From a virus, in IMG/VR virus record IMGVR_UViG_3300020233_000010, positions 1-54,137 of that record: DNA of 54,137 nt. One strand, written 5' to 3'. The notes beneath the pieces are model-generated. The model did not search any database. It was not told the DNA's origin and saw only the letters and a program-made list of their open reading frames with translations. The position numbers and the translations under genes are program-made. This document shows positions 1-35,550 of the stretch, piece after piece (position 1 is the stretch's first letter; every line of letters starts with the position of its first letter).

Positions 1-130
1 CACAGCTCTGTTAGCTATTTCGCCATTGACGTTTTTTGTCACAGCTCTGTTAGCTATTTCGCCATTGACGTTTTTTGTCACAGCTCTGTTATCTATTTCG
101 CCATTGACGTTTTTTGTCACATCTCTGTTT
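1..130 (-). repeat. 39-nt in-frame tandem repeats, left contig end
   Basis: About three and a third copies of a 39-nt unit (CACAGCTCTGTTAGCTATTT then CGCCATTGACGTTTTTTGT on the + strand). Each unit encodes 13 residues. Copies differ by only a few bases: GCT/GAT at the variable codon and CATCTCTG in the first copy. The same unit occurs at 54013-54137 and 53343-53452. Confidence 0.95.
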
Positions 131-18061: not shown

Positions 18062-19210
18062 ATGGTCAGTCAATTTGACATAGAAAAAATGCAGAGAGTT
18101 GAAGTTCGTGTATTCCTAAATCTTATGGGTGTAGTATACAAACGACATCCTAAGACGGCTGGGGCTATACGAGACCTCGCATTAAAATATACAGAAAGGT
18201 ATCCAGAAAAAGCTGTAGAAATGTTCGGCGCTGTTAAGTACGGCAACAAGAACGCTTCAATAGTTGACTCCCCTAAATCTAAAGATGTAGACGACATCGT
18301 GACTTCTGTTGTCAACATATTAAGCAAGGAGCATGGTGCATCGCTTCATAGCATTAAGAAAGACGTTGTGAGTTTTGCGAAAGAAGTTGCGAAAGAAGTT
18401 GCAATACAGGAGATGGGAATTTACCGTCCGCTTGAATTAAAACAGAAAGGTAAGAAATCTGTAAAGCTTAAAGGTGTATTGCCAAAACAGTTTGAGAAAT
18501 TGCTACAGCTTGCCCATAGGCGTAGAAACATTTTAATGGTAGGGCCAGCCGGTTGTGGAAAGACATATATAGCAGGTAAGATTGCAGAGGCGTTAGGATT
18601 AAGCTTTGCATCTCAGTCATGCAGTGAGGGTATGAGCGAAACAGCTTTCACAGGATGGTTGATGCCTATAGGTAAGCAAGGAACATTTGAATACGTGCAG
18701 AGTGAGTTCGTCCGAATCTATGAAGGTGGTGGTGTATTCTTACTTGACGAAATAGATGCCAGTGATTCTAATGTTCTAGTCTTCATGAACCAAGCACTTG
18801 CCAATGATGGATTCTACTTACCACAACGACACAATAAGCCGTTCATAAAAAAGCATAAGGACTTTGTCGCTATCGCAGCCGCTAACACGTTCGGCAATGG
18901 TGGAGATGCAATGTACGTTGGACGCAACCAGTTGGATGCAGCTACACTTGATAGATTCAAGATCGGTACTGTGTATATGGATTACGACGAAACAGTTGAG
19001 AAGGCTTTGATACAAACAAGATGCGAGTTGGTATACGAATGGGGAATTTTGATAAGGGAAAAGATTACCCGTCATAACTTACGCAGAATTCTATCTACTC
19101 GCGTTATGATTGATTCAGTAGAAATGCGCGAAGAAGGTTGGTCACTTAAAGAAATAAGTGATGCGTACTTTTCTGATTGGAGCCGTGAAGAACTGAGGAT
19201 GGTTGCATGA
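18062..19210 (+). CDS. CobS/MoxR-like AAA+ ATPase
   Basis: 382 residues. The AAA+ core has Walker A MVGPAGCGKTYIAG at residues 158-171, the FTGWLMPIG pore-like segment, Walker B GGVFLLDEIDAS near residue 225, the sensor region AIAAANTFG and a LDAATLDRF arginine-finger helix. The N-terminal 130 residues are helical. This is the CobS branch, whose members act with a vWA-type partner to remodel targets. The partner-like gene follows directly with an ATGA overlap. Confidence 0.88.
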   Translation: MVSQFDIEKMQRVEVRVFLNLMGVVYKRHPKTAGAIRDLALKYTERYPEKAVEMFGAVKYGNKNASIVDSPKSKDVDDIVTSVVNILSKEHGASLHSIKKDVVSFAKEVAKEVAIQEMGIYRPLELKQKGKKSVKLKGVLPKQFEKLLQLAHRRRNILMVGPAGCGKTYIAGKIAEALGLSFASQSCSEGMSETAFTGWLMPIGKQGTFEYVQSEFVRIYEGGGVFLLDEIDASDSNVLVFMNQALANDGFYLPQRHNKPFIKKHKDFVAIAAANTFGNGGDAMYVGRNQLDAATLDRFKIGTVYMDYDETVEKALIQTRCELVYEWGILIREKITRHNLRRILSTRVMIDSVEMREEGWSLKEISDAYFSDWSREELRMVA

Positions 19211-20115
19211 ATATTGTAGAGACTAAGGATGTAAGAAGGATCGGTGTGGTTGAGTCTATACACTTTGAATCTCTAATAGACTTGATAGATACGTCAGAGA
19301 ACAGTGTTTCTATACACGACAATAGATGGGCCTACCGTAAACATATATCCATGACAGATTTAAGCGGTAAGGATCCTAGATGGTTTGGAAAAGGTAATAA
19401 TAACTATAAAGATGTTATGGACAAAGCTTTAAGCGGAGACCCCGCTATGCTTGAAAATCTTAATGATAAAATTTCACTATTCAAAAAAGGAGAGATGGAA
19501 AATAAGTTTGAAAGTAGATCTGTTAAAAAAGCAAAGCGTAAGAAAGTAAGAGCAGAGTTTGGTGAAGAAATAGACATACATAAAGTATACCAAGGACAGT
19601 TAGATAAGGCGTGGTCGTCCCACAAGAGAATAGAAATAGATGTGGAACACCACTTAGTAACTTTGTTTGTTGATGTTGGCGGCTTAAGAAATGAAAAAGT
19701 TTCTGATTCTTTATGGAGAGCGGCTGTAGCTGTAAAGGTGGCGGATGATTTAATCAAAGCAGGTAAGTCGGTACAGGTTGTAATCGGCAGCTCCTGCACT
19801 AACCTGCACAGCGAAGCAGAAGTTGTAATGACCAGTATAGTAGTTAAGAAATACAATGAGCCACTGAGCATGGAGCGGCTTGCTGCTATGTCACATCTTG
19901 GGTTCCACCGTACATTCAACTTCGGAGCAAGAGCATTTTCTACAGGCAGTATAAGTAGAACTATGGGATACAGTTCAGATCATTGCGAAACTATACCGCC
20001 TATACAGATGTATGAAGATGTAGAATCTGGCAGTGTTAAGTACATCTACATTCCAAGGTGTCTTAGTTTGTATGACGCTAATATGGCTATAGACAATATC
20101 TATAAAGGGTTTTGA
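19207..20115 (+). CDS. vWA-like partner of the CobS-type ATPase (DUF7192-like)
   Basis: 302 residues. The C-terminal half starts with a hydrophobic strand ending VDVGGLRNEKVSDSLWRAA and continues as alternating strands and helices (VADDLIKAGKSVQVVIGSS). This resembles the von Willebrand A-like protein that accompanies CobS-like ATPases in phages. The usual MIDAS DxSxS is not intact (VDVGG instead), so metal binding is doubtful. Pairing is inferred from adjacency. Confidence 0.7.
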   Translation: MNIVETKDVRRIGVVESIHFESLIDLIDTSENSVSIHDNRWAYRKHISMTDLSGKDPRWFGKGNNNYKDVMDKALSGDPAMLENLNDKISLFKKGEMENKFESRSVKKAKRKKVRAEFGEEIDIHKVYQGQLDKAWSSHKRIEIDVEHHLVTLFVDVGGLRNEKVSDSLWRAAVAVKVADDLIKAGKSVQVVIGSSCTNLHSEAEVVMTSIVVKKYNEPLSMERLAAMSHLGFHRTFNFGARAFSTGSISRTMGYSSDHCETIPPIQMYEDVESGSVKYIYIPRCLSLYDANMAIDNIYKGF

Positions 20116-22408: not shown

Positions 22409-22609
22409 ATGGCGAATATAAAAGCACTAGAAAACTGGACTGAGCTAAACAAGAAGATAAACAGTTTCAGTCTGAAAGGTTTGATAGTTCTGCTAGACCA
22501 AGAAAAGAATGGTTCTAATAGAAGATCATTTGTAAGAAGGATACACCAAAAAATTACTAGGATGCGCGGCGTTCAAGAAAGAGAAAAGCTAATGAGGAAT
22601 TCAAAGTGA
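22409..22609 (+). CDS. Small helical protein before the DNA polymerase
   Basis: 66 residues, TAGGAGAACATTAAG upstream. Helical and basic, with LKGLIVLLDQEKNGSNRRSF then VRRIHQKITRMRG, a pattern common in short ORFs adjoining phage polymerase genes. It overlaps the polymerase start by ATGA. Function unknown. Confidence 0.72.
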   Translation: MANIKALENWTELNKKINSFSLKGLIVLLDQEKNGSNRRSFVRRIHQKITRMRGVQEREKLMRNSK

Positions 22610-24435
22610 TAGTACCTCTGGATTTTGAAACAGAATCTATTGAGAAAAGACCTGAATATCCGCCGAAGCCGGTAGGTGTAGCGGTAAGGTTTGGACGCGG
22701 TGGGTATCGTTATCTTGCTTGGGGACACCCGACAGAAAACAACTGTACAAAGACCGAAGCTAATAAAGTGGTGCGGGATATTTTTAGGAACCATACTCCA
22801 TTAATGCACAATGCAGCATTTGATATAGATGTTGCTATGTCTTTCATGGGCGCAAAGTTTCCTAAGGATTTCCATGATACTTTGTTTCTTGCATACCTAC
22901 ACGATCCAAGGGATAAAAGTCTTAGTCTCAAACCGCTTGCAGAAAAGTATCTTGGTATGTCGCCAAAAGAACAGGACATGTTGAGAGAATGGATACTTGC
23001 TAATGTTCCTGAGGCGTTGCCAGAAACAAAAAAGAATCCTGCAGGAAAGTATATATGCAGAACTCCAGGAATGTTGTGCGCCAAGTATGCAAGAGGGGAT
23101 ATTATTAGAACAGAAAAACTTTTCAAACTGTTCTACCCATATATAAAAGACAATGGAATGCTTGAATCGTACGAAAGGGAAAAGCGTGTAATGCCTGTCT
23201 TCAATGATATGTCTGAAGGCGGTGTTAAGGTAGCTGTAAGAAGATTGAAAAAAGATGTTAGGAAATGGCAATCAAGAAGGGAAGGTATTGGAAAAGTAAT
23301 TCGCTCACGTTTAAAAACAAAAGACTTAGACATAAGCAGCCCGAAGCAGTTAGCAGATGCGCTTGATAGAACAGGTAAGATCATACACTGGATAAAGACT
23401 CCTAAGGGAAATAAGAGTACTAGCCGTGAGAACTTAATAACTACCTGCATAGATAAGAAGTTGGTGGAACTACTTTCTATCTACGCTGTCTATGGAACTT
23501 ACATAAGCACATTTGGATTGCCATGGATTGAAGCAGCAGAAAAGTCTAACGGATATATCCATCCTAACTTTAACCAAGTAAGATCGCCAGATGAATACGG
23601 CAGTGGAAGTAAGGGAACAAGAACAGGAAGACCGTCTAGTAACAATCCAAACTTTTTCAATGTACCAAGGAATCCAAATGATCCAAGTATTAAATGGACA
23701 ATGGAGTTGCCAAGGTTGCGGGAATATTTAATACCAGATGAAGGATGTGTTTTTCTTAACAGAGATTACAGTCAACAAGAGTTAAGAATACTAGCGCACT
23801 TTGAAGACAGTGTTTTGATGCAGGCATACTTGAAAGATCCTACTATGGATGTTCACGCTTTTATTGGGGGATTGATAACAGAGTGTACCGGCCTAGTATT
23901 CCCAAGGAAGCATATCAAGGTTCTCAACTTCGGAGTTGTCTATGGTATGGGAGTTCCAGGTTTGATGAAGAAGATAGGGTGTAGTCGTGAAGAAGCATCT
24001 TCTCTTAAGAAAGCTCATGCAAAGGCGCTGCCAGCAATAGGAGATTTGAATAAAGAAATAAAACGAATGTCAAAACGTGGAGATCCTATTGTTACGTGGG
24101 GCGGACGACAATACTACACTGAAGAGCCGAAGATTATAAATGGTCACTTAAGAAAGTTTGAATACAAACTATTAAATTATCTTATACAAGGTAGCGCGGC
24201 CGACGTAACTAAGGAAGCGATGTGCAGAGTAGCTTCTGATTTAAAATCTGATAGTCGTGTAGTGTTGCAGGTGTACGATGAATTGATGATTAATGTTCCT
24301 AAAGGTACTGAGAAAAAGAACATGAAGTTGCTACAAGAATCAATGGAGTCTGTACAGATGGATGTACCTATGTTGAGTGACGGTAAGAAATCTTCTATTA
24401 GTTGGGGCAAAGCAAAGCCATACGAGGTGAGATGA
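22606..24435 (+). CDS. Family A DNA polymerase with 3'-5' exonuclease
   Basis: 609 residues. The proofreading exonuclease (about 1-190) has Exo I LDFETE (D6, E8), Exo II HNAAFDID and a YARGD-type Exo III. The polymerase has motif A NRDYSQQELRILAH (D387), motif B RKHIKVLNFGVVYG (about 434-447) and motif C VYDEL (D556). Motif C has Tyr where bacterial Pol I and T7 have His (HDE). There is no 5'-nuclease domain. It replicates the genome and must incorporate any modified thymidine made by the 27.7-33.4 kb operon. Confidence 0.95.
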   Translation: MIVPLDFETESIEKRPEYPPKPVGVAVRFGRGGYRYLAWGHPTENNCTKTEANKVVRDIFRNHTPLMHNAAFDIDVAMSFMGAKFPKDFHDTLFLAYLHDPRDKSLSLKPLAEKYLGMSPKEQDMLREWILANVPEALPETKKNPAGKYICRTPGMLCAKYARGDIIRTEKLFKLFYPYIKDNGMLESYEREKRVMPVFNDMSEGGVKVAVRRLKKDVRKWQSRREGIGKVIRSRLKTKDLDISSPKQLADALDRTGKIIHWIKTPKGNKSTSRENLITTCIDKKLVELLSIYAVYGTYISTFGLPWIEAAEKSNGYIHPNFNQVRSPDEYGSGSKGTRTGRPSSNNPNFFNVPRNPNDPSIKWTMELPRLREYLIPDEGCVFLNRDYSQQELRILAHFEDSVLMQAYLKDPTMDVHAFIGGLITECTGLVFPRKHIKVLNFGVVYGMGVPGLMKKIGCSREEASSLKKAHAKALPAIGDLNKEIKRMSKRGDPIVTWGGRQYYTEEPKIINGHLRKFEYKLLNYLIQGSAADVTKEAMCRVASDLKSDSRVVLQVYDELMINVPKGTEKKNMKLLQESMESVQMDVPMLSDGKKSSISWGKAKPYEVR

Positions 24436-24436
24436 A

Positions 24437-24655
24437 ATGACAGATGAAATGGCAGATGAAGAAAAAATACTTTGGATGTTTGAAGAAGTGCATGGTGAGA
24501 TGACTGGAAGTTGTTATACAGAAGTTGAGTATGATGACTTCGGAAAAGCTATAGAAGTTTCTGTAATGAAAGGCGGTAATGTATGTTGGAGCGAAAGTAA
24601 AGCAGACTTAGTTTTTTCCTATTTGATAAAGATACATTTTAAAGAGGGTGCATAA
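24437..24655 (+). CDS. Small acidic hypothetical protein
   Basis: 72 residues, starting MTDEMADEEKILWMFEEVHG, one base after the polymerase stop. Strongly acidic. No family recognised. Overlaps the next start. Confidence 0.65.
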   Translation: MTDEMADEEKILWMFEEVHGEMTGSCYTEVEYDDFGKAIEVSVMKGGNVCWSESKADLVFSYLIKIHFKEGA

Positions 24656-25317
24656 TGGCTAATAAATTTTCAACATCATATTCCCGTTGGAGCGTGTTTA
24701 ATAATTGTCCTTTCCAATACGATTGTAAATTTAACAAAAAGATTCCAGAGGAGCAGAGATACTTTTCTGAGCGCGGCAATATCATCCATGCAAAAGCAGA
24801 ACACTTTGTCAAAGGTAACATAACAGGAATGCCGGATGAGCTGAGTAAATTCTCGTCTGACTTTCGTTCTTTAAGAAACTGTGGTGCAAAGACAGAAATA
24901 GATGTAGCCATAAATAAAGATTGGAATCCTTCTTTTGGCACAGACTGGGATAACGTATGGGTAAGAGCGAAAGTAGATGCGCTTGGATTCCTATCAGAAA
25001 AGGAAGCAGTGGTGGTAGATTATAAGACAGGGAAAGTATATGATAGCCATAAAGGGCAAGGAGAATTGTATGCTCCGCTGGTACTAGCGCACTATCCAAA
25101 GATAAAGATAATGCACGTTGAATTCTGGTATCTAGACAGTGGGGAATATAGTGAAGTAACTTACTTGCCGAAGAAGTTGAAAGATTTAAAGATGCAGTGG
25201 ACGGATAGATTTAAGAAGCAAGAAGCTGCTAAGAAGTTCAAAGCAACTCCAAGTACAAAAGCTTGTCAGTGGTGCAGCTTTAGAAAATCAAAAGGAGGAG
25301 TATGTAAGTATGGCTGA
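24655..25317 (+). CDS. PD-(D/E)XK nuclease, Cas4/RecB-like with probable Fe-S cluster
   Basis: 220 residues. The motif sequence is Cas4/RecB-like: an early Cys in FNNCPFQY (C18), RGNIIHAKAEHF, the Asp in VRAKVDALG, the D-x-K of VVDYKTGK, and GELYAPLV as the QxxxY-type helix. The C-terminal CQWCSFRKSKGGVCKYG gives three more cysteines, so a 4Fe-4S cluster is likely. Probable single-strand exonuclease in recombination or end processing. Confidence 0.88.
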   Translation: MANKFSTSYSRWSVFNNCPFQYDCKFNKKIPEEQRYFSERGNIIHAKAEHFVKGNITGMPDELSKFSSDFRSLRNCGAKTEIDVAINKDWNPSFGTDWDNVWVRAKVDALGFLSEKEAVVVDYKTGKVYDSHKGQGELYAPLVLAHYPKIKIMHVEFWYLDSGEYSEVTYLPKKLKDLKMQWTDRFKKQEAAKKFKATPSTKACQWCSFRKSKGGVCKYG

Positions 25318-25600
25318 CGAATTAGAATCAAGTATAGAATCAAAGTTCAAAACCTATGTAGAAAGTAGAGGAGGGGTATGTTTAAAACTAACCCCGGAAG
25401 GACAGAAAGGTTGGCCGGATAGGTTAGTGGTTTATGAAGGCGGTCACTTCTTCATAGAGTTAAAGCGTAAAGGAAAGGAGCCGAGGAAGTTGCAGTGGTA
25501 CAGAATAAATAAATTAAAGAGGATGAGACATGCCGCCTTTTGGACAGACAACATCGAAGAAGCAAAAAGAATCTACAACAGAGAAGTTGGTTCCTCATAA
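25310..25600 (+). CDS. VRR-NUC domain nuclease
   Basis: 96 residues, the whole protein being a VRR-NUC domain: GWPDRLVVYEGG with the catalytic Asp (D37), FFIELKRKGKEPRKLQ with E50 and K52, and a final DNIEEAKRIY helix. VRR-NUC enzymes are structure-specific nucleases, typically acting on branched DNA. It overlaps both neighbours and is coupled with the SNF2-type helicase. Confidence 0.92.
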   Translation: MADELESSIESKFKTYVESRGGVCLKLTPEGQKGWPDRLVVYEGGHFFIELKRKGKEPRKLQWYRINKLKRMRHAAFWTDNIEEAKRIYNREVGSS

Positions 25601-27701
25601 ATATTGGGTGAAGGCTTTAGAGTTTGTAATTAAAAGATCATCAGCAGGATTATTTCTTGCTCCAGGAAAAGGTAAGACATCAATAATTTTAACTATGCTT
25701 GAAATATTGATAGCTAAAAAGATATCAAAGAACATGTTGGTGGTGGCCAAGTCAAGAATTATTTATAACGTGTGGCCAAAAGAAATAAAGAAGTGGGGAT
25801 TTGATCTTAGTCATACTATTCTGCATGGAGTACAGAAAGATAAGAACTTTCAAAAAGATGTAGATGTGTATCTAATAAATTATGAAGGGTTGTTATGGTT
25901 AGAAAAGAAAATGAAGGGGAAGTTGAAACATAAATTTGATATCCTAGTGTTGGACGAATCAAGTAAGATAAAGAATACGAAGTCAAAGCGTTTCAAAGTT
26001 GTAAGACGTATAGCCAAGTTATTTAATAAGAGATATATACTAACCGGCTCTCCCATACCTAACGGCTTAAAGGATATCTTTGCTCAAATTTTCGTATTAG
26101 ATTTAGGGGAAGCACTTGGTAAATTCAAGACGCAATTTCTTGTCGAGTATTTCTATCCAAGCGGATTTAAAGGTCACGACTGGAAGATAATTCCTGGAGC
26201 AGATAAGCTTATATACAAAAAGTTGAAAGGGCTTATTCTACGAATAGGAAAAGAGAAAGATGAGTTGCCGCCACTACATATAGTAGATAAGATAGTGCCG
26301 TTGCCAGTAGAAGCTCAGAAAATATACGATGAATTTGAAGAAGAATTTATTGTAGAATTAAAACAAGGATTGGTAATCGCTTCTAATGCTGGCGTAAGAA
26401 CTCAGAAGTTAAGGCAGATTACAAGCGGTAGTGTGTACGGTGAAGATAAGAAAGTAATAGAAATACATAATGAAAAGATTGAAGAACTTGAAGAAATAAT
26501 AGATGAGCTGCAAGGAAATCCATGCTTAGTGGCATATGAATTTAATCACGAACTTGATAGGTTGATGAAATCATTTCCTAAAGCAAAGCATATAGGAAAA
26601 GGTGTATCGCTTAAAGAAGGAATTAAGATAGAAGATGATTGGAATGCTGGTAAGATTCCTGTACTGTTCGGACAGATAAGTGCTATAGCGCATGGATTGA
26701 ACTTGCAAGAATCAGGACACCACCTTGTTATATTCAGTATGACATGGAACCTTGAAGATTATGAACAGTTGATACAAAGATTATGGAGGCAAGGTCAGAA
26801 GAACGAAGTTACTGTTATAAGATTATTAATGGAGGATACGATAGATGAGTTGATGGTTAAAGTAATAGATAAGAAAGATGCTGTACAAAAAGATTTACTT
26901 AATGCACTAGAAGAAATATATGGAGGAGAGATGGTTGCAAAGAAAAAGGATGTCAAGATGAAAGTTAACAAAGAAGTGATGGATGCTGTTAAGGAGTTTG
27001 CTAACAAATCTAAAATATCAATGCCGATCTTTGGTAAAGATAAGTTCGCTCCACAAGCTTTTTGTCTTGGGGTATTGGCAATTCTATCAAGATCTAGCCA
27101 TTCAGGTCTGCAAGATTTAATCTATAAACTAACAGGAAAGGAGGTGCTACATATAAACGAGTTGATACCGCTATATAAAAAAGCAGAGAAGGAAGTGCTT
27201 GAAGGAATGGCGGTAGAGAAAGATGATATAGGTAATCTGCATCCATGTGATGTTGCCGGTCTAAAGAAATATTCTGGTAGCAAAAAGGATGGTAAGATTA
27301 TAGACCCGAAAGAATACATTAACCAACCGGAGTACATGAACATGAATAAGAAGACTGACAATTCAAAATCCAAAATGTCTAGTAAGAAAAAGGTAGCGCC
27401 GAAGAAGAAAGCAGTAACGAAGACAGCGACGAAGAAGAAAGCAGTAACGAAGACAGCGACGAAGAAAGAAGAAACTTCTACAGCACTGGCTTACGATGCT
27501 AAGAAGAAAGTGACAGTTGGAAGCGGTGTTCCTATTATGCCAGCAAGGAAAGCTGTTCTTGGTATGATACCTACTGGTAAGAAAGGTATCGGCTACGGCA
27601 GCCTTGTATCTAAGATGATTGAAGCAGGAACTTCTCAGAAGAGAGCGGAGAATACTATTCGCGCTATGGCTGGTAAGAAGTTCATAGTTATCGGAGGATA
27701 G
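25530..27701 (+). CDS. SNF2/SF2-type DNA helicase with lysine-rich C-terminal extension
   Basis: 723 residues. Helicase core (about 20-455): Walker A LAPGKGKTS, DILVLDESSKIKN (motif II), YILTGSPIPNG (motif III), and C-terminal GLNLQESGHHLVIFS with QLIQRLWRQGQ (motifs V-VI). GAGG before the ATG supports this start despite a 71-nt overlap with the VRR-NUC gene. Residues 468-723 are an extra region with a lysine/threonine-rich stretch containing two identical 30-nt repeats and a winged-helix-like end. An internal ATG at 26931 has GGAGGAG just upstream. Confidence 0.92.
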   Translation: MPPFGQTTSKKQKESTTEKLVPHKYWVKALEFVIKRSSAGLFLAPGKGKTSIILTMLEILIAKKISKNMLVVAKSRIIYNVWPKEIKKWGFDLSHTILHGVQKDKNFQKDVDVYLINYEGLLWLEKKMKGKLKHKFDILVLDESSKIKNTKSKRFKVVRRIAKLFNKRYILTGSPIPNGLKDIFAQIFVLDLGEALGKFKTQFLVEYFYPSGFKGHDWKIIPGADKLIYKKLKGLILRIGKEKDELPPLHIVDKIVPLPVEAQKIYDEFEEEFIVELKQGLVIASNAGVRTQKLRQITSGSVYGEDKKVIEIHNEKIEELEEIIDELQGNPCLVAYEFNHELDRLMKSFPKAKHIGKGVSLKEGIKIEDDWNAGKIPVLFGQISAIAHGLNLQESGHHLVIFSMTWNLEDYEQLIQRLWRQGQKNEVTVIRLLMEDTIDELMVKVIDKKDAVQKDLLNALEEIYGGEMVAKKKDVKMKVNKEVMDAVKEFANKSKISMPIFGKDKFAPQAFCLGVLAILSRSSHSGLQDLIYKLTGKEVLHINELIPLYKKAEKEVLEGMAVEKDDIGNLHPCDVAGLKKYSGSKKDGKIIDPKEYINQPEYMNMNKKTDNSKSKMSSKKKVAPKKKAVTKTATKKKAVTKTATKKEETSTALAYDAKKKVTVGSGVPIMPARKAVLGMIPTGKKGIGYGSLVSKMIEAGTSQKRAENTIRAMAGKKFIVIGG
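27401..27460 (+). repeat. Two exact 30-nt tandem repeats in the helicase tail
   Basis: 27401-27430 and 27431-27460 are identical and encode two copies of a ten-residue Lys/Thr/Ala unit (KKKAVTKTAT). A similar KKKSVTKKK stretch begins the ssDNA-binding-type protein at 21512. Confidence 0.95.
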
Positions 27702-27702
27702 C

Positions 27703-28599
27703 ATGATCGAAAGAAATTTAGATACGTTTCTGTACTGGATAAAGGAACGGCATTCTATATTTCTTAAGAAGGAATCAGGTAGGGTTGCGCCATGGACGGC
27801 CGACCCGATCCTTCAGGAATATAAGTTTACCAATCCATTCAGACAAAACGACAGGGTTACAAGGGAGCTTGCCAGTAGACTGACAGGATATGTTCATGAA
27901 GATGCTATCTTTAATGCAATAATAATATTCAGAATGTTCAATCTTGACTCTACTTATGGGAAGCTGTACGCCAGCAATCTTACAAATAAATGGAGTACTG
28001 CAAAAGCAAAGAAGATATTGCATAAAAGAAAAGAACAGGGTCATAAAGTTTTTACTGGAGCATACATAATAACGAACAGTGGAAGTACTAGATCAAAGAT
28101 AGATTTAGTATGTGAAGCTGTAGGCAGTATTCTGAAAGATACAGATTCTATTGTAAAAGACATTAAAGAATCTAACTCTCTTGAATATGCGTGTTCTGTA
28201 TTGGAAAGGTATCTTATGGTTGGTAAGTTTATATCTTACGAATTAGTCACTGACCTACGACATACTCATATCCTTCACAACGCCAAAGATATTTATACAT
28301 GGGCTAATCCTGGACCTGGATGTAAGCGCGGAATCCATCGTATTCTATTTGACACAGTGCGTGGCGACTTGCCGAGAGGACTGGTATTGAATAATGTTAA
28401 GGTGTGTGTTGACTACCAAGAAGAAATGAAAAAGCTGCTTAAGATAGTGCAAAAGAAATTAGGAAAGCTTAAGAACTTTCAGAAGACTGTATTTGAAATG
28501 CGTGACATAGAGCATAGCTTATGCGAATTTGATAAGTACATGCGTGTTAAGAATGGTGAAGGCAGACCACGAAGTAAATACCCAGGAGGTAAGAGATGA
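27703..28599 (+). CDS. 5-hmdU DNA kinase helical-domain / thymine pyrophosphorylase-type protein
   Basis: 298 residues. The pattern is that of the helical (glycosylase-related) family linked to thymine hypermodification: FLYWIKERHSIFLKK, APWTADPILQEYKFTNPFRQ, NDRVTREL, FNAIIIFRMFN, FTGAYIITNSG, FISYELVTDLRHTHIL and TWANPGPGCKRGIHRI. Family members are annotated as 5-hmdU DNA kinase (helical domain) or alpha-glutamyl/putrescinyl thymine pyrophosphorylases, and I cannot tell which activity applies. They act on hydroxymethyluracil already in DNA. First gene of the coupled modification operon, next to the helicase. Confidence 0.85.
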   Translation: MIERNLDTFLYWIKERHSIFLKKESGRVAPWTADPILQEYKFTNPFRQNDRVTRELASRLTGYVHEDAIFNAIIIFRMFNLDSTYGKLYASNLTNKWSTAKAKKILHKRKEQGHKVFTGAYIITNSGSTRSKIDLVCEAVGSILKDTDSIVKDIKESNSLEYACSVLERYLMVGKFISYELVTDLRHTHILHNAKDIYTWANPGPGCKRGIHRILFDTVRGDLPRGLVLNNVKVCVDYQEEMKKLLKIVQKKLGKLKNFQKTVFEMRDIEHSLCEFDKYMRVKNGEGRPRSKYPGGKR

Positions 28600-29723
28600 A
28601 GATACTGATATGTCTTCCAGCTATACAAGATTACGGTGGTATTATAAATCATGCTGAACATCTTATTCATGGACTTAACTATATAGGGCATGATGTAGAT
28701 TTTGTAAAGATAGAAAATAAAGAAAAGATTACCAAGTCTTCAGTCTCAAGACCTCTATTCCATAATACTTTTTCTGGAATACCTCTTGATCAAAAAGTTG
28801 GATGGGCATTTCCACCAGAGAACAGAGTGCCGATTAGATCTGTAAATTGGAAGTCGTACACTTCTAAATATGATCTAGTTATTTGGGAGTTTCCAGCGCC
28901 ATCAAAAGGGTATGAAGATGTTATGGAGAAGATGTATAATATAAAAACTCCGCAGATAATGTTCGTACACGATGGCAACATGGAAAGGATGTACCCACGT
29001 ATAGCAAAGTTCAAAGATAAGTTTGAGTTCTTTGCTTGCGTTCATCCTTGCGCTCTTGGCAATGCAGAAGCTATGAGTATAGAAAATAGAAGACTGATAG
29101 TAAATCCCCAAGCTTTAGGAAGGCGTATGGTTAACTATACAGTGTACAGAAAAAGAGGAAGAACTGTATGCTCGTTTCAAACCTTTAAAGGTTGGAAGAG
29201 AGTAGATGAGTTTATCCGCGCTATACCAATGTTAAGTGCGAAGCATGTTACGGTAGGAGGAGGAGGAATAGAATATCATTACATGACCAGTAAGAACAAG
29301 CGCAAAGAAAAGTACGGTCGTATATGGGAACACGCCTGTTCAGCAGGAATGAAATACATTGGCTATGTTTCTGAGAGTGAAAGAGATGATGTATTAAAAT
29401 CTTCAAGACTACTTATTGACGCTTCTTGGTCTAAAAGATATTCTCAATATGGAAGTCATTTCAATCGTGTAATGGTTGATGCGATAATAAAAGGGTGCAT
29501 ACCTGTTCTACGAGATTTAGCTATGGTTGACAACGGAATATTCAAACCAGAAATAAACTACATTGAAATACCTTACGACTGCTCTACTGAAGAGTTCGCA
29601 GGTATAGTTGACAAAGCTCTTAGTATGAATTTTATTATGTGCAGAGACATGATAAAGTGGTCACAGAAAATAATTAAGAAAAAGTTTGATAGTAGAGTAG
29701 TAGCAAAAAGATTACTGGCATAG
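28596..29723 (+). CDS. GT-B glycosyltransferase (GT4-like)
   Basis: 375 residues. The N-terminal Rossmann domain has LPAIQDYGGIINHAEHLIHG followed by GHDVDFV, a GT4-type opening. The C-terminal domain has the FQTFKGWKRVDEFIRAIPML strand-helix and GYVSESERDDVLKSSRLLID followed by the donor-site-like SHFNRVMVDAIIKGCIPVL. It probably transfers a sugar from an NDP-sugar. Within this operon the acceptor could be a hydroxymethylated base in DNA, but a surface or virion target cannot be excluded. It overlaps its upstream neighbour by ATGA. Confidence 0.85.
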   Translation: MKILICLPAIQDYGGIINHAEHLIHGLNYIGHDVDFVKIENKEKITKSSVSRPLFHNTFSGIPLDQKVGWAFPPENRVPIRSVNWKSYTSKYDLVIWEFPAPSKGYEDVMEKMYNIKTPQIMFVHDGNMERMYPRIAKFKDKFEFFACVHPCALGNAEAMSIENRRLIVNPQALGRRMVNYTVYRKRGRTVCSFQTFKGWKRVDEFIRAIPMLSAKHVTVGGGGIEYHYMTSKNKRKEKYGRIWEHACSAGMKYIGYVSESERDDVLKSSRLLIDASWSKRYSQYGSHFNRVMVDAIIKGCIPVLRDLAMVDNGIFKPEINYIEIPYDCSTEEFAGIVDKALSMNFIMCRDMIKWSQKIIKKKFDSRVVAKRLLA

Positions 29724-29732
29724 GAGAATTGT

Positions 29733-30440
29733 ATGAGTCGCAAGATAGTAGTTTTTCCGAACAGAGAAAAAGGATACAGAGGAACAGCACGAAGATGGGG
29801 GGTGCGTGAAAGAGTTAGAAAAGAGATACGTCTTGTCCTTATCAATGGTACTGGAAGTAGTGGTACGAAATACATCAGTAAAGTTTTTCAAGCTATAGGT
29901 ATGGATATGCCGCACGAAAGAACAGGTGCAGACGGATCTGTTACGCACTACTTCCATACAGACCACGAATGGTATCCTATGTTTCCGTGGTATGAAGGAT
30001 GCGCTCATGTAGGAGAAAGAAGATCTGACTATATATTTGAAAATGAATTCCTTGCAGTAAGACATCCTTTGAAAGTTATAGCAAGTATGACGTCTTCATT
30101 TGATAGGATGGATTTTGAATTCTTAGAAGAGACAGGCGTTATAGAGTACGGTATAGAACCTAAGATACTAAGAGCTATGAATGCGTATTACTATGCTAAT
30201 GCTAAGATGGAGAAATCCTCTTCGTTCATATTTCAGTTGGAGACTATGGAGAAGTCGTGGTCTAAGATATGTAAGAAGTTAGGAATAGGTAAAGTTGACT
30301 TTCCTATTGTAAAGGTGCAGAATAGAAATACTGGATACAGAGCGCCCAAGGAAATACAGTGGGAAGACATTGAAAAGGTAGATTCAGATCTTACACTTAA
30401 GATAAAGAAAATGGCAAGGAGATATAAATATGAGGTATGA
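29733..30440 (+). CDS. Sulfotransferase-like P-loop protein
   Basis: 235 residues. After a basic leader the strand-loop-helix LVLINGTGSSGTKYISKVFQ (about 34-53) is a PAPS-sulfotransferase-type P-loop. The second signature is FLAVRHPLKVIASMTSSF near residue 110, matching the 3'-phosphate-binding R...S motif. An FQLETMEKSWSKICKKLGI helix closes the fold, as in sulfotransferases. It could alternatively be a divergent kinase. It lies in the hypermodification operon and overlaps the radical SAM gene. Confidence 0.75.
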   Translation: MSRKIVVFPNREKGYRGTARRWGVRERVRKEIRLVLINGTGSSGTKYISKVFQAIGMDMPHERTGADGSVTHYFHTDHEWYPMFPWYEGCAHVGERRSDYIFENEFLAVRHPLKVIASMTSSFDRMDFEFLEETGVIEYGIEPKILRAMNAYYYANAKMEKSSSFIFQLETMEKSWSKICKKLGIGKVDFPIVKVQNRNTGYRAPKEIQWEDIEKVDSDLTLKIKKMARRYKYEV

Positions 30441-31389
30441 ACAGGAACCGCCTTTTTGTATACAGATGGAGATGACCGAAGGATGCAATCTCTATTGCGA
30501 TTTCTGTGGGCTACAGGGTATAAGAACCAAGAAAGAAAAGAACCTGAAGTTCTTAACTGTAAATCTTGCTGAAAAAATATCGTTGCAGATATCAAAGGCA
30601 GGATGGAATTCTAGAGTAGAATTTGCTATGCACGGAGAGCCTACTATGAATCCTAATGCAGCAGAAATAATAGAAGTGTTCAGAAAGAACATTCCTAAAG
30701 TTCATTTGATGATTACAAGTAACGGAGGAGGGTTGATAAAAGATTCTTACAATGCTATAGAAAAGCTATTTGATGCAGGACTTAATGTATTGGCTCTAGA
30801 CAGTTACGAGTATGTGAACATAGTACCCAAGATTTTAGGTAAGATAGAAAAAGAATGTGCATCATTTGAAACTCATTTCTATCCTGAAGAAAAGAACATA
30901 AGCCCTCATAACAGATATCCATTATCTGCAAGAAAATTAATAGTAGTTAAAGATATTTCTGTGGCTGATAAGGGGAATCATTCTAAACTGAATAATCATT
31001 GCGGAGCAGCAGCGCCGTTAGATTTCAGCGCATCTAATAAGAAGTGCGCCAAACCTTTTAGAGAAATAAGTGTACGATGGAATGGAGCTATATCTATATG
31101 CTGTAATGATTGGCGCGGCGAGTATAAGTGCGGCAACGTTTCAAAAGAGTCTATAGAAAAAATATGGAACGGAAAAGCTTTTTCTATAGCTAGGAAATTT
31201 CTATACAATGGTATGCGTGATTTTAGTCCTTGCCATGGATGTGATGCGACAAGTTATAGAATAGGATTGCTACCAGATAAGAAAGGAAAGTTTGATTTAC
31301 GAAAACCATCTTCTAAAGATAAGAAAGATGTGAAGGAGTTTACAAACGGTAGAGCATTTACTATTAAAGTAAAAAGGGAGTGGGAATAA
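30430..31389 (+). CDS. Radical SAM protein with SPASM-like C-terminal cysteines
   Basis: 319 residues. The radical SAM motif CNLYCDFC (C19, C23, C26) is followed by HGEPTMNP (the GE motif) and LMITSNGGG. The C-terminal region has cysteines at CAKPF, ICCNDW, KCGNVS and CHGC, with the typical GAISICCNDWRGEYKCGNV layout of a SPASM auxiliary-cluster domain. Radical SAM enzymes occur in known phage thymine-hypermodification clusters, but a SPASM-type member normally acts on peptides or larger substrates. Substrate unknown. Confidence 0.88.
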   Translation: MRYEQEPPFCIQMEMTEGCNLYCDFCGLQGIRTKKEKNLKFLTVNLAEKISLQISKAGWNSRVEFAMHGEPTMNPNAAEIIEVFRKNIPKVHLMITSNGGGLIKDSYNAIEKLFDAGLNVLALDSYEYVNIVPKILGKIEKECASFETHFYPEEKNISPHNRYPLSARKLIVVKDISVADKGNHSKLNNHCGAAAPLDFSASNKKCAKPFREISVRWNGAISICCNDWRGEYKCGNVSKESIEKIWNGKAFSIARKFLYNGMRDFSPCHGCDATSYRIGLLPDKKGKFDLRKPSSKDKKDVKEFTNGRAFTIKVKREWE

Positions 31390-32405
31390 TGAAGGTATTA
31401 AGTGTAAGGAATGTAAACTGTGCATACTATGAAGGTATGCAGTTATTGAAAGATGAGGGAAGGTTAATATCCCCAAGAGGTATGGATACGTTAGAAGTTC
31501 CTTGTCCTGTGGCTACTGTATATCAAAATCCTACAGAACGTGTTTGTATGATATCAGAACGAGACGCCAACCCATTCTTCCATCTGTTTGAAAGTATATG
31601 GATACTAGCAGGTAGAAGAGATGTTGAATGGCTTGCTCAATTCAATAGCAACATAGCTAACTTTAGTGACGACGGAGAGCTGTTCCATGCAGGATATGGA
31701 TACAGATTAAGGAAGCAGTTTGGAATGGATCAGATAGATGAGGCAATGGAAGTTCTAAAAGAAAGCGAAGATACGCGCCAAGCAGTATTGCAGATATGGA
31801 ATTGCATAACAGATTTGAATTGTGACAGTAAGGATATTCCGTGTAACGACATTATATTTTTAAAGATACGCGGCGGTCGTCTTAACATTACAGTCTGTTG
31901 TAGAAGCAACGATGTTATTTGGGGTGCGTATGGTGCAAACGTTGTGCAGTTTTCTATGCTGCAAGAATATATAGCTACTAAGCTCGGAATTGAAGTAGGG
32001 ACGTATACTCAGATATCAGATTCATTCCATGCGTATATTGAGAACCCTCAGTTTGAAACTATGATATTGTGGTCAAATGAAGTGGCGAAAATGAAAGCTG
32101 TTCCTGATCTATACAGAATGGTATATATACAGCCCTACCCGATTATGGACGTACCAGATAAATGGGATGAAGATGCTAAGATTTTTGTAGACCATAGCTT
32201 ATATGGAATACAGGATAATGCAGAATATAAGTTGTATAGAAATAAATGGTTCCGTAAAGTTGCCTGTCCAATGTTTCTATGTTGGAAGCAGCATAAGATT
32301 AACGGTACTGGATTATCTAAGACAAATCTTATACAAGCAACGGACTGGCGCAAAGCGGCGGAACAATGGTTTGCCAAAAGGGAGGACATAAAATGCAGTG
32401 GTTAA
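31389..32405 (+). CDS. Thymidylate synthase-family enzyme, probable dUMP hydroxymethylase
   Basis: 338 residues. Thymidylate synthase-fold signatures are ANPFFHLFESIWILAGRRDV, the catalytic Cys in DIPCNDIIF (C152), CCRSNDVIWGAYGANVVQFS and DSFHAYI. The usual PCH is PCN here. Phage members either make dTMP or hydroxymethylate dUMP for incorporation as 5-hydroxymethyluracil. Location beside the DNA-kinase/pyrophosphorylase gene favours hydroxymethylation. The ATG at 31389 overlaps the radical SAM stop (TAATG) and follows GGGAG. Confidence 0.88.
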   Translation: MKVLSVRNVNCAYYEGMQLLKDEGRLISPRGMDTLEVPCPVATVYQNPTERVCMISERDANPFFHLFESIWILAGRRDVEWLAQFNSNIANFSDDGELFHAGYGYRLRKQFGMDQIDEAMEVLKESEDTRQAVLQIWNCITDLNCDSKDIPCNDIIFLKIRGGRLNITVCCRSNDVIWGAYGANVVQFSMLQEYIATKLGIEVGTYTQISDSFHAYIENPQFETMILWSNEVAKMKAVPDLYRMVYIQPYPIMDVPDKWDEDAKIFVDHSLYGIQDNAEYKLYRNKWFRKVACPMFLCWKQHKINGTGLSKTNLIQATDWRKAAEQWFAKREDIKCSG

Positions 32406-32986
32406 AGACAGCAAGATTGGGTGGACAGGTGCAGAGATGCCATACGATTCCTACAGTTCAGAAACATCATTCGGTAGCGGAACATTCATTTAATTGCATA
32501 GTGATAGCTAACCATATATGCAATGAGCTTAATAGAATATATTTTATGGTTGATCTATCTCCTACAGCAGTGTGCTCCTATCTTTTAATACATGACATAC
32601 CAGAGTCATACACTGGAGATATTCCTGCAAATGTAAAAAAGGACTGTACAGCCATTAAGGAGAATCTTTATTTACTTGAAGAAATATGGATGAAAGAAAA
32701 TATACCAGAATATGCTTCGCAGTACACCACTATGACACCTTTAGAAAAGGAAGTTGCATCGTTGGCAGATTCGTTGGAGTTTGTAATGTTCTGTACAGAT
32801 GATTTTGAAATGGGGAATAGATCTCCTGTATTCTTGGAAGCATACAGACGTGGTTGTGAGTATGCAGAATCGAAGTCTGAAATAAAAGAACTGTTGTTAA
32901 CTTCGGAAATAGCAAAAAAGATAACGGAAAGGGCGCGTTACTTAATGCTTTCTATTGGGTGGATACATCAAGGAGCAGAGAAATGA
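32393..32986 (+). CDS. HD-domain nucleotide phosphohydrolase (YfbR-like)
   Basis: 197 residues, ATG at 32393 with GGAGG upstream. HD motifs: QKHHSVAEHSF (first His and AEH), LLIHDIPESYTGDIPA (the HD pair and E/TGD), and a late LADSLEFVMF Asp. This is the 5'-deoxynucleotidase/YfbR type. In hypermodifying phages such enzymes remove normal dTMP or related nucleotides so that the modified precursor is used. The specific nucleotide is inferred. Confidence 0.85.
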   Translation: MQWLKTARLGGQVQRCHTIPTVQKHHSVAEHSFNCIVIANHICNELNRIYFMVDLSPTAVCSYLLIHDIPESYTGDIPANVKKDCTAIKENLYLLEEIWMKENIPEYASQYTTMTPLEKEVASLADSLEFVMFCTDDFEMGNRSPVFLEAYRRGCEYAESKSEIKELLLTSEIAKKITERARYLMLSIGWIHQGAEK

Positions 32987-33357
32987 ATTTAAAAAGAGCA
33001 ACTGCATGGCAGAGTATAGCAAATAGTGATGTACTGTCTTTATCAGAATCAGAAAAGAACTACGGATCAAGTTGGAAGAAGCGCGGTGGTGTAGATAGCT
33101 TTATGATGTTAGCAAGGAAGTGGGATAGGTTGGAATTGCAATGTAAGAAAGAGGATTGGAACATACTTGAAGCAACTATTAAAGATGGAAGGGAAGAAGG
33201 GTTGCTTGATGACATTGGAGATTTACGAAGATACTTGCTACTGGTAGAAGCGGAAGTTCGCCAGCGTATGTATGATGCAGCAGAAAAAGTAAAGAAAGAA
33301 AATATTGAAGTTACCAGAATAGGGGATGCAGAATCAAGCTACATAAACCAAGATTAG
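32983..33357 (+). CDS. Small conserved protein, possible nucleotide-pool helper
   Basis: 124 residues, AGGAGCAGAGA upstream, overlapping the HD gene by ATGA. Central pattern KNYGSSWKKRGGVDSFMMLARKWDRLE, then GLLDDIGDLRRYLLLVEAEVR. I recognise this from small phage proteins near nucleotide-metabolism genes. The YGxxW...D...D layout recalls all-alpha NTP pyrophosphatases (MazG-like/Nmad), but the fold is unproven. Last gene of the rightward arm. Confidence 0.75.
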   Translation: MNLKRATAWQSIANSDVLSLSESEKNYGSSWKKRGGVDSFMMLARKWDRLELQCKKEDWNILEATIKDGREEGLLDDIGDLRRYLLLVEAEVRQRMYDAAEKVKKENIEVTRIGDAESSYINQD

Positions 33358-33718
33358 CAAACCACTATGCAGCCATACAGGCAATACCCACACAGTTTAG
33401 TAGGTTATTAATGCCAGCCCTGTGCGCGTGTAATGCCCTGTACGGCTGTATGCTTTGCCACGTTTTACCCCAACGTGCCGCTACGGGCTTAGAGATTAGC
33501 CTAGCAAGCAATACAAGCGCCCTATACGCTACCGCTTGCACACCTATGGCTAGGCGGCGCTTGCAAGCGGCTTTTTGCCCTGTACATGGCCGCTTAACTG
33601 GTATGGCAAATTGCTTGCCGTACACGCCACCATACGACCGCTGATTACACCCACAACCCCTCCCACACTGGCAACCCGTTCCAGTGCCTAGTTACCAACC
33701 CACCTAGAATTCAAAATA
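33358..33718. other. Convergent intergenic region, GC-rich island
   Basis: 361 nt between the ends of the two arms. It is clearly richer in G+C, and in C on the + strand, than the surrounding purine-rich genes. It contains several short inverted repeats (ACGTT..AACGT near 33459; GGCAA..TTGCC near 33605; CACTGG..CCAGTG near 33668) and a terminator-like hairpin. It also has one ACGCCACC motif (33621-33631) and CCCTGTAC twice (33436, 33578). ORFs on both strands lack ribosome binding sites and look like chance. Confidence 0.65.
33532..33576 (+). terminator. Probable terminator of the rightward arm
   Basis: CCGCTTGCA (33532-33540) pairs with TGCAAGCGG (33562-33570) over 9 bp with a 21-nt loop, followed by CTTTTT. 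It is placed where rightward early transcription should stop before meeting the leftward genes. Confidence 0.55.
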
Positions 33719-33919
33719 CTACTTACCTGTTTTTTCCTTAAAGATTTTATCCCACTCAGTTTTGAGCAAGTCAGTCTTTCCACGAAGTTCTTCCATCTCT
33801 GCATCGGTAGGTTCCGTCCTTCCGTCAGCAGCCATCTCTTGTTGCAACTGGTTAACCCGCATCATTACAGTTAACGCTGTTGCGCTCATGTCTAAAAGCA
33901 ATAACGCATTTGCACCCAT
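33719..33919 (-). CDS. Small protein in the lysis region
   Basis: 66 residues. A hydrophobic N-terminus (MGANALLLLDMSATALTVMM) precedes a charged coiled-coil-like segment (VNQLQQEMAADGRT...MEELRG). This layout is common for small accessory proteins next to phage lysis genes. It directly follows a lipoprotein gene; a spanin-like pairing is possible but unproven. Last gene of the leftward arm. Confidence 0.65.
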   Translation of the reverse strand: MGANALLLLDMSATALTVMMRVNQLQQEMAADGRTEPTDAEMEELRGKTDLLKTEWDKIFKEKTGK

Positions 33920-35007: not shown

Positions 35008-35550
35008 TTAAATAAAATCTTTTAAAATTTTTCTTAACTTACCTTTACCTCTACTCAGTCTGCTCTTAACTGTTCCTATAGGTATGTCCAGCATATTAGA
35101 AACAGACTCTACAGAGTAGCCTTCTAAATAACATAGTACAATAACTTCTCTGTGCATTTCTTTCATCTGTCCTACCAGCGTAACCATAACTTTACTATAT
35201 AGACTATCAGTTTCATAGTCTTTAGACGCACATCTATGTTCGCAACTATCTGCATAAATTTCTTCTACAGATCTATTCAGTATTTTCCGACTACCCTTTC
35301 TGCAATCATCTATAAACATATTTCTTAATACTCGTCTAATCCAACTTTTAGGATGTTCTACTGTAGGAATATTTTCTACACTATGAAGTCTTACGCAAAG
35401 ATCTTGCACAAGGTCTTCAGCATCCTGAAAGTTATTAGTCATTGTATAGGCCAGATAAACAAAGTAACTTCTATTCTTATCTATAAATAAGCAATACTCC
35501 TTACAACTTTTAGGAGAAGGTGGGTATTCTATAGATACAGAACATTCCAT
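35008..35550 (-). CDS. ECF-type RNA polymerase sigma factor
   Basis: 180 residues. Region 2: DAEDLVQDLCVRLHSV and PKSWIRRVLRNMFIDDCRKG (-10 recognition and core binding). Region 4: MHREVIVLCYLEGYSVESVS followed by IPIGTVKSRLSRGKGKLRKI, a helix-turn-helix for -35 binding. Region 3 is missing, as in ECF factors. Encoded inside the late/lysis cluster, it could redirect host polymerase to late or post-late promoters. I see no anti-sigma gene beside it. Phage-encoded ECF factors are uncommon. Confidence 0.9.
   Translation of the reverse strand: MECSVSIEYPPSPKSCKEYCLFIDKNRSYFVYLAYTMTNNFQDAEDLVQDLCVRLHSVENIPTVEHPKSWIRRVLRNMFIDDCRKGSRKILNRSVEEIYADSCEHRCASKDYETDSLYSKVMVTLVGQMKEMHREVIVLCYLEGYSVESVSNMLDIPIGTVKSRLSRGKGKLRKILKDFI

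Follow-up and report, generated by a model that had tools for sequence, protein, structure and literature searches.

A gene run behind the DNA polymerase gene

A total of seven open reading frames (ORFs) on the + strand, running in the same direction and mostly overlapping, were found at positions 27703-33357 of the window, that is, the full 54,137-nt stretch of the record IMGVR_UViG_3300020233_000010, which belongs to an uncultured phage. A direct terminal repeat of 66 bp (positions 1..66, with the second copy at 54072-54137) indicates a complete, circularising contig. The successive spacings between genes 1 to 7 were -4, +9, -11, -10, -16 and -28 bases, those of gene 6 being computed with its start at 32390. 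Upstream of gene 1, moreover, the run reached without interruption as far back as 22606. This upstream part (22606..27701, + strand) holds the gene for the DNA polymerase, of family A, one short ORF, a pair of nuclease-like ORFs and an SNF2-type helicase gene, with spacings of +1, -1, -8, -71 and +1. The seven genes are therefore the tail of a longer replication and modification run. The first-pass annotation, which had described a compact operon of seven coupled genes, was right about the seven genes at this place, which do not, however, form a free-standing unit. The polymerase and the helicase were regular neighbours in related loci, and the same core was found again in dozens of divergent viral contigs, a recurrence far above chance.

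Gene 5 (31380..32405, + strand) encodes a member of the thymidylate synthase superfamily (phrog_5131, E 6e-111), whose nearest solved structure was the CMP 5-hydroxymethylase MilA (E 3e-19). It has the catalytic Cys (C155) and an Asn that recognises uracil (N187), the latter being kept in 150 of 151 relatives and aligned with an Asp in MilA, and the pair C155-N156 was present in all 151. Judged from these residues, gene 5 is a predicted dUMP 5-hydroxymethylase, i.e. a 5-hydroxymethyl-dUMP-type synthase, rather than a thymidylate synthase or a CMP hydroxymethylase. Gene 6 (32366..32986, + strand, with an alternative ATG at 32393) encodes a YfbR/DatZ-like HD phosphohydrolase (dNMP/dNTP hydrolase) matching PF12917 (E 8e-16) and phrog_7076 (E 2e-18), with DatZ and YfbR among its PDB matches. 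Finally, gene 7 (32959..33357, + strand, with an ATG at 32983) encodes a small conserved protein, whose copy in the window had no match to curated families, including Pfam; its family comprised 46 ORFs in the fetched loci (19 once near-copies were removed), with a strong invariant core, SYGxSWKxRGG...DDIxDLRRYL, in a 17-member alignment. The initial descriptions of genes 5, 6 and 7, as a thymidylate synthase/dUMP hydroxymethylase homologue, an HD phosphohydrolase and a small conserved protein, were all borne out.

The product of gene 1 (27703..28599, + strand) matched PF18723 over its whole length (E 9e-56). This family was formerly named aGPT-Pplase1, and its name derives from the 5-hmdU DNA kinase. 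In the AlphaFold model (pLDDT 92), the predicted fold resembles HhH DNA glycosylases, with 8-oxoguanine DNA glycosylases filling the first five Foldseek ranks (E no better than 0.045, TM 0.33-0.51). The motif GPGxxRG and a set of R/D/C/E/K residues were invariant across 37 relatives, in kinase and glycosyltransferase contexts alike. Gene 1 is thus a probable DNA/5-hmdU-binding core subunit without a kinase domain. Its annotation as a 5-hmdU DNA kinase/thymine-pyrophosphorylase is not supported, and a kinase role was rejected, as gene 1 has no P-loop and PF18748, the P-loop 5-hmdU DNA kinase, was not found in the whole window by a search that detects it in the phages YuA and Sonora. In the M6-group phage YuA, the PF18723 protein adjoins a P-loop kinase that is a distinct protein (gp13, PF18748). 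The GxxxxGK[ST] sites of the window were found only in one AAA ATPase and two structural proteins. Similarly, the amino acid:DNA transferase PF18724 was not found in the window, the same search being positive for YuA, Sonora and two related loci (L051 and L054). Since neither family was found in an apparently complete contig, the known kinase/amino-acid pathway is probably not the one encoded. Nevertheless, YuA shares the core of gene 1 and gene 5 homologues, and together with the type of gene 5 this makes the cluster very probably one for 5-hydroxymethyluracil-based DNA hypermodification, as first proposed.

Genes 2 to 4 and the partners of the core

Gene 2 (28596..29723, + strand) encodes a putative GT-B glycosyltransferase, referred to as the 'GT50' family in this analysis. 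Its match to Glycos_transf_1 (E 1.3e-4) reached 22.0 bits, under the Pfam cut-off of 26.4, and the profile of its family gave only weak matches against the PDB, to a glycosyltransferase and to Alr3699. On these matches, the earlier GT-B assignment stays putative. Relatives of gene 2 adjoin HMUDK_hel, TS or rSAM genes in loci L011, L017, L109 and L159. Among 50,697 phage records, neither gene 2 nor gene 3 had a near relative. The TAGT domain, one of the four glycosyltransferase families in the radical SAM loci, was present in most relatives but was not detected in the window by profile; for the TAGT member of phage T6, the proposed role is the addition of a second glucose to phage DNA (PMC13390438). 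Furthermore, related loci hold sugar-activation genes of the heptose-7-P kinase (6e-73) and heptose-1-P adenylyltransferase (3e-24) types, as well as NTP transferase and mannose-P-isomerase-like genes. Overall, glycosylation of 5-hmdU in DNA is well supported by comparison.

Gene 4 (30430..31389, + strand) encodes the radical SAM-SPASM protein recognized at first reading, with Radical_SAM (2e-10) and SPASM (7e-12) both above the Pfam cut-off, an invariant CxxxCxxC and at least 177 viral relatives. The nearest solved structure to its family profile was BtrN, a 2-deoxy-scyllo-inosamine dehydrogenase (E 3e-14). A relation to YuA gp12, the radical SAM candidate of the M6 group, was rejected, as the two had nothing in common beyond the Cys motif. 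Among 55 deduplicated radical SAM loci, 49 had one of the four glycosyltransferase families, 49 had gene 5 and 44 had gene 1, while a kinase-like gene appeared in one, without a PF18748 match, and the amino acid transferase in none. The radical SAM gene thus travels with glycosyltransferases and not with kinases. Within the literature searched, no paper was found tying a sulfotransferase or a radical SAM enzyme to hypermodified phage thymidine.

A set of 47 deduplicated loci with gene 1 and gene 5 homologues was sampled without regard to kinase or glycosyltransferase. A kinase only was found in 19 of them, a glycosyltransferase only in 21, both in 2 and neither in 5 (Fisher p 1e-6 for the exclusion), where the glycosyltransferase families were defined from the same loci and glycosyltransferases or kinases outside the known families were not counted. 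This label switched at least 7-9 times along the gene 1 tree, and a tree-aware test restricted to independent, well supported branch pairs pointed in the same direction without reaching significance (about 6 vs. 1, median p 0.125). Beside the core of genes 1 and 5, the kinase and the glycosyltransferases therefore mostly replace each other. Genes 2 to 4, which had been said to fit no pathway, would belong to this recurrent alternative, with a glycosyltransferase in the place of the kinase, and with radical SAM and sulfotransferase genes in an accessory, tailoring role.

Gene 3 (29733..30440, + strand) encodes a putative PAPS-type sulfotransferase without a Pfam match of its own, two of its relatives matching Sulfotransfer_3 just under the cut-off. 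The 3'-phosphate motif R-x7-S (R110-x7-S118) was invariant in six relatives and the H/E/D core was intact. For the structural model (pLDDT 74), sulfotransferases were the best three Foldseek matches (E ~1e-2, TM 0.31-0.42). A P-loop kinase was rejected for gene 3, as shikimate and NMP kinases ranked lower and the 3'-phosphate motif was present. However, its sulfate-donor loop (GTGSSGTK) departs from the family, with SSGTK against R[SC]GT[TM] in relatives: a Ser stands at the Arg site, and a Lys, two residues past the Gly, where four out of five relatives have Thr. Because of these substitutions, gene 3 may have weak or altered sulfotransferase activity, or none. The description as a sulfotransferase-like P-loop protein agrees with the 3'-phosphate motif and, at low scores, with the fold matches, but not with the donor loop. 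More generally, the profile searches proposed at first reading recovered PF18723 and SPASM, but neither PF18748 nor a family for gene 3.

With regard to context, which rests on six phages, the sulfotransferase occurred with core genes and with a glycosyltransferase in 6/6, and APS kinase accompanied the gene 3 relative in 1/6 (E 9e-61). APS kinase is very rare in phages (five matches in 50,697 phage records) and was not found in the window. In another lineage, it immediately follows the genes for TAGT, a putative second sulfotransferase and a radical SAM protein. This second family (L152, L156, L091) is assigned as putative from motifs and neighbourhood, and profile comparison gave no support for its homology to gene 3. 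Taken together, sulfation is plausible, with the reservation of the altered donor loop of gene 3.

Proposed pathway and competing explanations

The cluster is likely to make a glycosylated and further tailored 5-hydroxymethyluracil in phage DNA. From the gene content, the protein families, the absence of a detectable kinase or amino acid transferase and the repeated co-occurrence in relatives, we infer the base and its sugar, the order of the steps, what genes 1 and 4 do, and the sulfate as follows. Gene 5 would convert dUMP to 5-hydroxymethyl-dUMP, gene 6 would probably clear competing dTMP/dTTP or other deoxynucleotides, and the phage polymerase would build 5-hmdU into DNA. There, gene 1 would bind and probably expose the base, which in other phages it would hand to a separate P-loop kinase, while here its partner would be gene 2, adding a sugar to the 5-hydroxymethyl group. 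Then, gene 4 may alter this sugar through an oxidation or another C-H reaction like that of BtrN, and gene 3 would possibly sulfate it with PAPS as the donor. The end product is probably undescribed, in agreement with the initial suggestion. A more specific form is put forward tentatively, with doubt as to its holding in full, namely a thymine carrying a radical-SAM-altered, sulfate-ester sugar, with APS kinase as the donor supply in some phages and PF18723 as a general subunit presenting 5-hmdU to a kinase or a glycosyltransferase.

Glycosylated 5-hmdU without sulfate, in which gene 3 would be a decayed or repurposed P-loop protein and the glycosyltransferase and radical SAM enzyme alone would act, is a sub-version of the proposed pathway that appears less likely than not: the altered P-loop, the lack of APS kinase in the window and the absence of gene 3 from most radical SAM loci agree with it, while the intact R-x7-S motif and H/E/D core, and the APS kinase next to a gene 3 relative in one phage, argue against it. 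A pathway of the M6/ViI type, where gene 1 would pyrophosphorylate 5-hmdU, an amino acid or amine would substitute and the radical SAM enzyme would rearrange the product as in M6, is improbable. The name of the gene 1 family and the radical SAM gene also held by the M6-like SN1 cassette (PMC9476957) are in line with such chemistry, whereas the negative PF18748 and PF18724 searches, the dissimilarity of YuA gp12 and gene 4, and the counts in the 55 radical SAM loci speak against it. Pathways for surface glycans or peptides commonly include sulfotransferases, GT-B enzymes and SPASM proteins, so that genes 2 to 4 could instead act on glycans of the host surface or on a peptide and be chance neighbours of a simple 5-hmdU system. 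This is very improbable, as the radical SAM and glycosyltransferase genes sit among 5-hmdU genes in most of the 55 loci, the sulfotransferase accompanied core genes in all six phages, and the genes overlap in the window.

Comparison with known modification systems

What is known of thymidine hypermodification is mainly a kinase-dependent chemistry of the amino-acid type. The present data indicate another branch, widespread among phages of many environments, in which 5-hmdU would receive a sugar that is then tailored. The '5-hmdU kinase helical domain' would thereby be recast as a common core that changes partners, and a new DNA-modifying radical SAM chemistry is predicted, possibly along with sulfate chemistry, which if true would amount to enzyme-catalysed sulfation of a glycan attached to DNA. 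Such bases would have consequences for restriction, type IV defence, phage DNA sequencing and tool enzymes.

Phage M6 carries 5-hmdU-derived bases (PMC6449724, PMC9476957). The M6/YuA/SN1 type (5-NedU pathway) resembles the window in the core of dUMP hydroxymethylase and PF18723 near a family A polymerase and in having a radical SAM gene. However, it holds a P-loop 5-hmdU DNA kinase, an amino acid:DNA transferase and a PLP enzyme, while the window has a glycosyltransferase, a sulfotransferase-like protein and an unrelated radical SAM-SPASM enzyme instead of kinase and transferase; no PLP family was detected among the window proteins scanned, a part of the ORFs. The cytosine hydroxymethylation and glucosylation of T-even phages is alike in that the hydroxymethyl base is made at the nucleotide level and the sugar is added on DNA, and the TAGT family is common to T6 and the loci related to the window. 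In contrast, the base is cytosine there and uracil here (Asn at the specificity site), and the window has a different GT-B instead of TAGT, together with sugar-tailoring enzymes.

The DNA of Bacillus phage SP-15 has a glycosylated, acid-bearing thymine derivative, glycosylated 5-(4,5-dihydroxypentyl)uracil, and the phage has carbohydrate genes, but this base and the cluster of 10 genes behind it (UDP-glucose dehydrogenase and uridylyltransferase among them) do not correspond to the genes of the window, and neither 'radical SAM' nor 'sulf' appears in the text of the SP-15 paper (PMC5977210). BtrN, which of all solved structures matched gene 4 best in sequence, has a free amino-cyclitol as its substrate in an antibiotic pathway, and the identity of gene 4 to it is low. 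Finally, Brevibacterium phage LuckyBarnes carries in one run (gp38-gp41) a TS, two TAGT glycosyltransferases and a PF18723 protein; a kinase and an amino acid transferase were searched for and not found, no report on its base chemistry was found, and, unlike in the window, the cassette has no radical SAM or sulfotransferase gene. As this phage is cultured and carries the core cassette, the core prediction is directly testable in it.

Gene content of the phage and the seven-gene run

The window comprised an entire viral contig of 54,137 bases, which is probably complete given its direct terminal repeat of 66 bp, despite being classified as linear in the database. Since it encoded a terminase, portal, protease, major head protein, tape measure and J-like fibre, the phage is siphovirus-like by gene content. 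Seven genes were confirmed on the + strand at 27703-33357, where the first-pass annotation had placed them, with overlaps between nearly all of them, continuing a gene run whose first member, at 22606, was a family A polymerase gene. The roughly 350 bases between the convergent gene runs (33365-33719) held overlapping and probably spurious ORFs on both strands, with no strong terminator-like site evident. Past the convergent end, a phage RNA polymerase sigma factor was found on the - strand (35008-35550; phrog_1740, E 8e-25), and a + strand gene pair at 18062-20115 encoded a MoxR/CobS-like AAA ATPase and, after it, a DUF7192 protein.

Regarding the individual genes, gene 2 was similar to GT-B glycosyltransferases (GTs), scoring under the Pfam cut-off, and gene 5 was a thymidylate synthase (TS) relative whose nearest solved structure was the CMP hydroxymethylase MilA. 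The base-recognition site had Asp in MilA and Asn in gene 5 and 150 of its 151 relatives, including gp17 of phage YuA, annotated as a putative deoxyuridylate hydroxymethyltransferase. Gene 6 was a YfbR/DatZ-like HD hydrolase (Pfam, PHROG and PDB matches), and gene 7 a small conserved protein for which a family match was sought and none found.

Gene 1 and the kinase/amino-acid pathway

Gene 1 had been taken for a 5-hmdU DNA kinase-type protein, a reading that was abandoned, as it had no P-loop and matched only the helical family PF18723, over its full length (Pfam, E 9e-56). Its structure was predicted confidently (pLDDT 92), and the best five PDB matches of the model were all helix-hairpin-helix 8-oxoguanine DNA glycosylases (weak E, TM 0.33-0.51), which suggests a DNA-binding, base-exposing protein. 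In YuA, a member of the M6 group, the PF18723 protein gp14 adjoined a separate P-loop kinase, gp13 (PF18748), in a cluster also holding the amino acid:DNA transferase family PF18724 (gp10); the paper on SN1 names these parts by older terms (PMC9476957). When whole records were searched, both PF18748 and PF18724 were detected in YuA, Sonora and kinase-type relatives, and neither turned up in the window, in the 30 viral records of GT type or in phage LuckyBarnes. Such an apparent absence is strong but not absolute, because the profiles overlook certain divergent members (PF18724 went unmatched in two records of the kinase type). The known M6-type kinase/amino-acid pathway is thus unlikely for the window.

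Kinases and glycosyltransferases among relatives

The gene 5 scan yielded 80 viral loci. Among 47 deduplicated loci holding genes 5 and 1, scored for four GT families, 19 had only a kinase, 21 only a GT, two had both and five neither (Fisher p 1e-6), and the amino acid transferase appeared in 12, the kinase being present every time. Along the gene 1 tree, a minimum of 7 to 9 switches of the kinase/GT label were counted, and the swap is recent in places, since the closest relative of the window by identity (L001) is of the kinase type. The exclusion is taken as a strong tendency rather than a proven rule, as independent pairs on strong branches only gave about 6 vs. 1 (p 0.125). Three kinase-type clusters (L001, L054 and L078) also carried FAD-dependent oxidoreductase-like (DAO) and acetyltransferase-like genes, which we take to resemble the aminomethyl-dU (PaMx11-type) route.

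At least 177 relatives of gene 4 were found, and 55 deduplicated loci contained a GT (49), gene 5 (49), gene 1 (44), a kinase-like gene (one) and no amino acid transferase. This pattern is not background, because no more than 375 of the 50,697 phage records had a gene 1 homologue. One frequent partner in gene 4-type loci was the TET-associated glycosyltransferase (TAGT), a family annotated as DNA glucosyltransferase in T-even phages (PMC13390438). At L147:2730-9990, a pair of TAGT genes was flanked by two radical SAM genes of the gene 4 type, and an adjacent protein resembled B12-binding radical SAM enzymes; this may be another variant of base-sugar tailoring. The sole genome-collection match of the gene 4-type family was a Patescibacteria MAG contig (L171, JAGWWT010000024.1) with polymerase, helicase, GT47, PF18723, gene 5 and HD genes. 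It most likely derives from a phage that was binned together with a patescibacterium, which may hint at the host.

Proposed sugar tailoring, possible sulfation and the likely pathway

Gene 4 was a radical SAM-SPASM enzyme, and the solved structure closest to it was BtrN. Gene 3 had sulfotransferase features: relatives scored slightly below the Pfam cut-off for Sulfotransfer_3, the 3'-phosphate motif was invariant, and its three best Foldseek matches were sulfotransferases with marginal scores. However, its P-loop (GTGSSGTK) departs from that of its relatives (R[SC]GT[TM]), making activity of this putative enzyme less likely.

Five further phages had gene 3 relatives, and each also carried genes 1 and 5 plus a GT (in L087, a TAGT-like protein slightly below cut-off); one of these contigs (L002) carried an APS kinase elsewhere in the genome (E 9e-61). 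In another lineage (L151:5945-10571, L152:5945-10571 and L154:4023-8649), five adjacent genes encoded a different radical SAM protein, a TAGT, a putative second sulfotransferase family, a gene 4-type radical SAM protein and an APS kinase. The gene 4-type gene came after those for TAGT and the putative sulfotransferase and was overlapped by the APS kinase gene; the flanking sequence retrieved held neither PF18723 nor a homologue of gene 5. APS kinases are rare in phages (matches in 5 of 50,697 records). Together with the context of the gene 3 relatives, they support sulfation as a step of the wider system, and in the window phage itself such a step is plausible.

Sugar-activation or sugar-modification genes were present in related loci, namely a fusion of a cytidylyltransferase-like domain and a mannose-phosphate-isomerase-type cupin (L018, L029, L042), homologues of heptose-7-phosphate kinase (L109; rfaE_dom_I, 6e-73) and heptose-1-phosphate adenylyltransferase (L019/L020), an NTP transferase (L004, L170) and an FkbM methyltransferase (L111). 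The kinase homologue in L109 hints at heptose as the sugar; the same phage has a GT50-type (gene 2 family) glycosyltransferase and radical SAM pair (L109:7676-15778).

In the most likely pathway, gene 5 would convert dUMP into 5-hmdUMP, gene 6 would control the deoxynucleotide pool, the polymerase would incorporate 5-hmdU into DNA, gene 1 would bind it there, gene 2 would glycosylate it, and gene 4, perhaps also gene 3, would tailor the sugar. The predicted gene 5 step is well supported by its residues and by the core common to M6-type phages, glycosylation by gene 2 is proposed on comparative evidence, and we infer what genes 3 and 4 catalyse and how gene 1 takes part.

Both hydroxymethyl bases bearing sugars and thymidines of the amino-acid type are already known. 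A 5-hmdU branch joining PF18723, glycosyltransferases, radical SAM-SPASM and sulfotransferase had no report in the literature searched, which left out the main thymidine-hypermodification papers. Finally, in the Brevibacterium phage LuckyBarnes (NC_047851, L172; PMC6588365), gp38-gp41 form a single run of TS, two TAGTs and a PF18723 protein. From this TS-TAGT-TAGT-PF18723 composition, its DNA probably carries glycosylated 5-hmdU and, being cultured, it offers the quickest route to test this branch.
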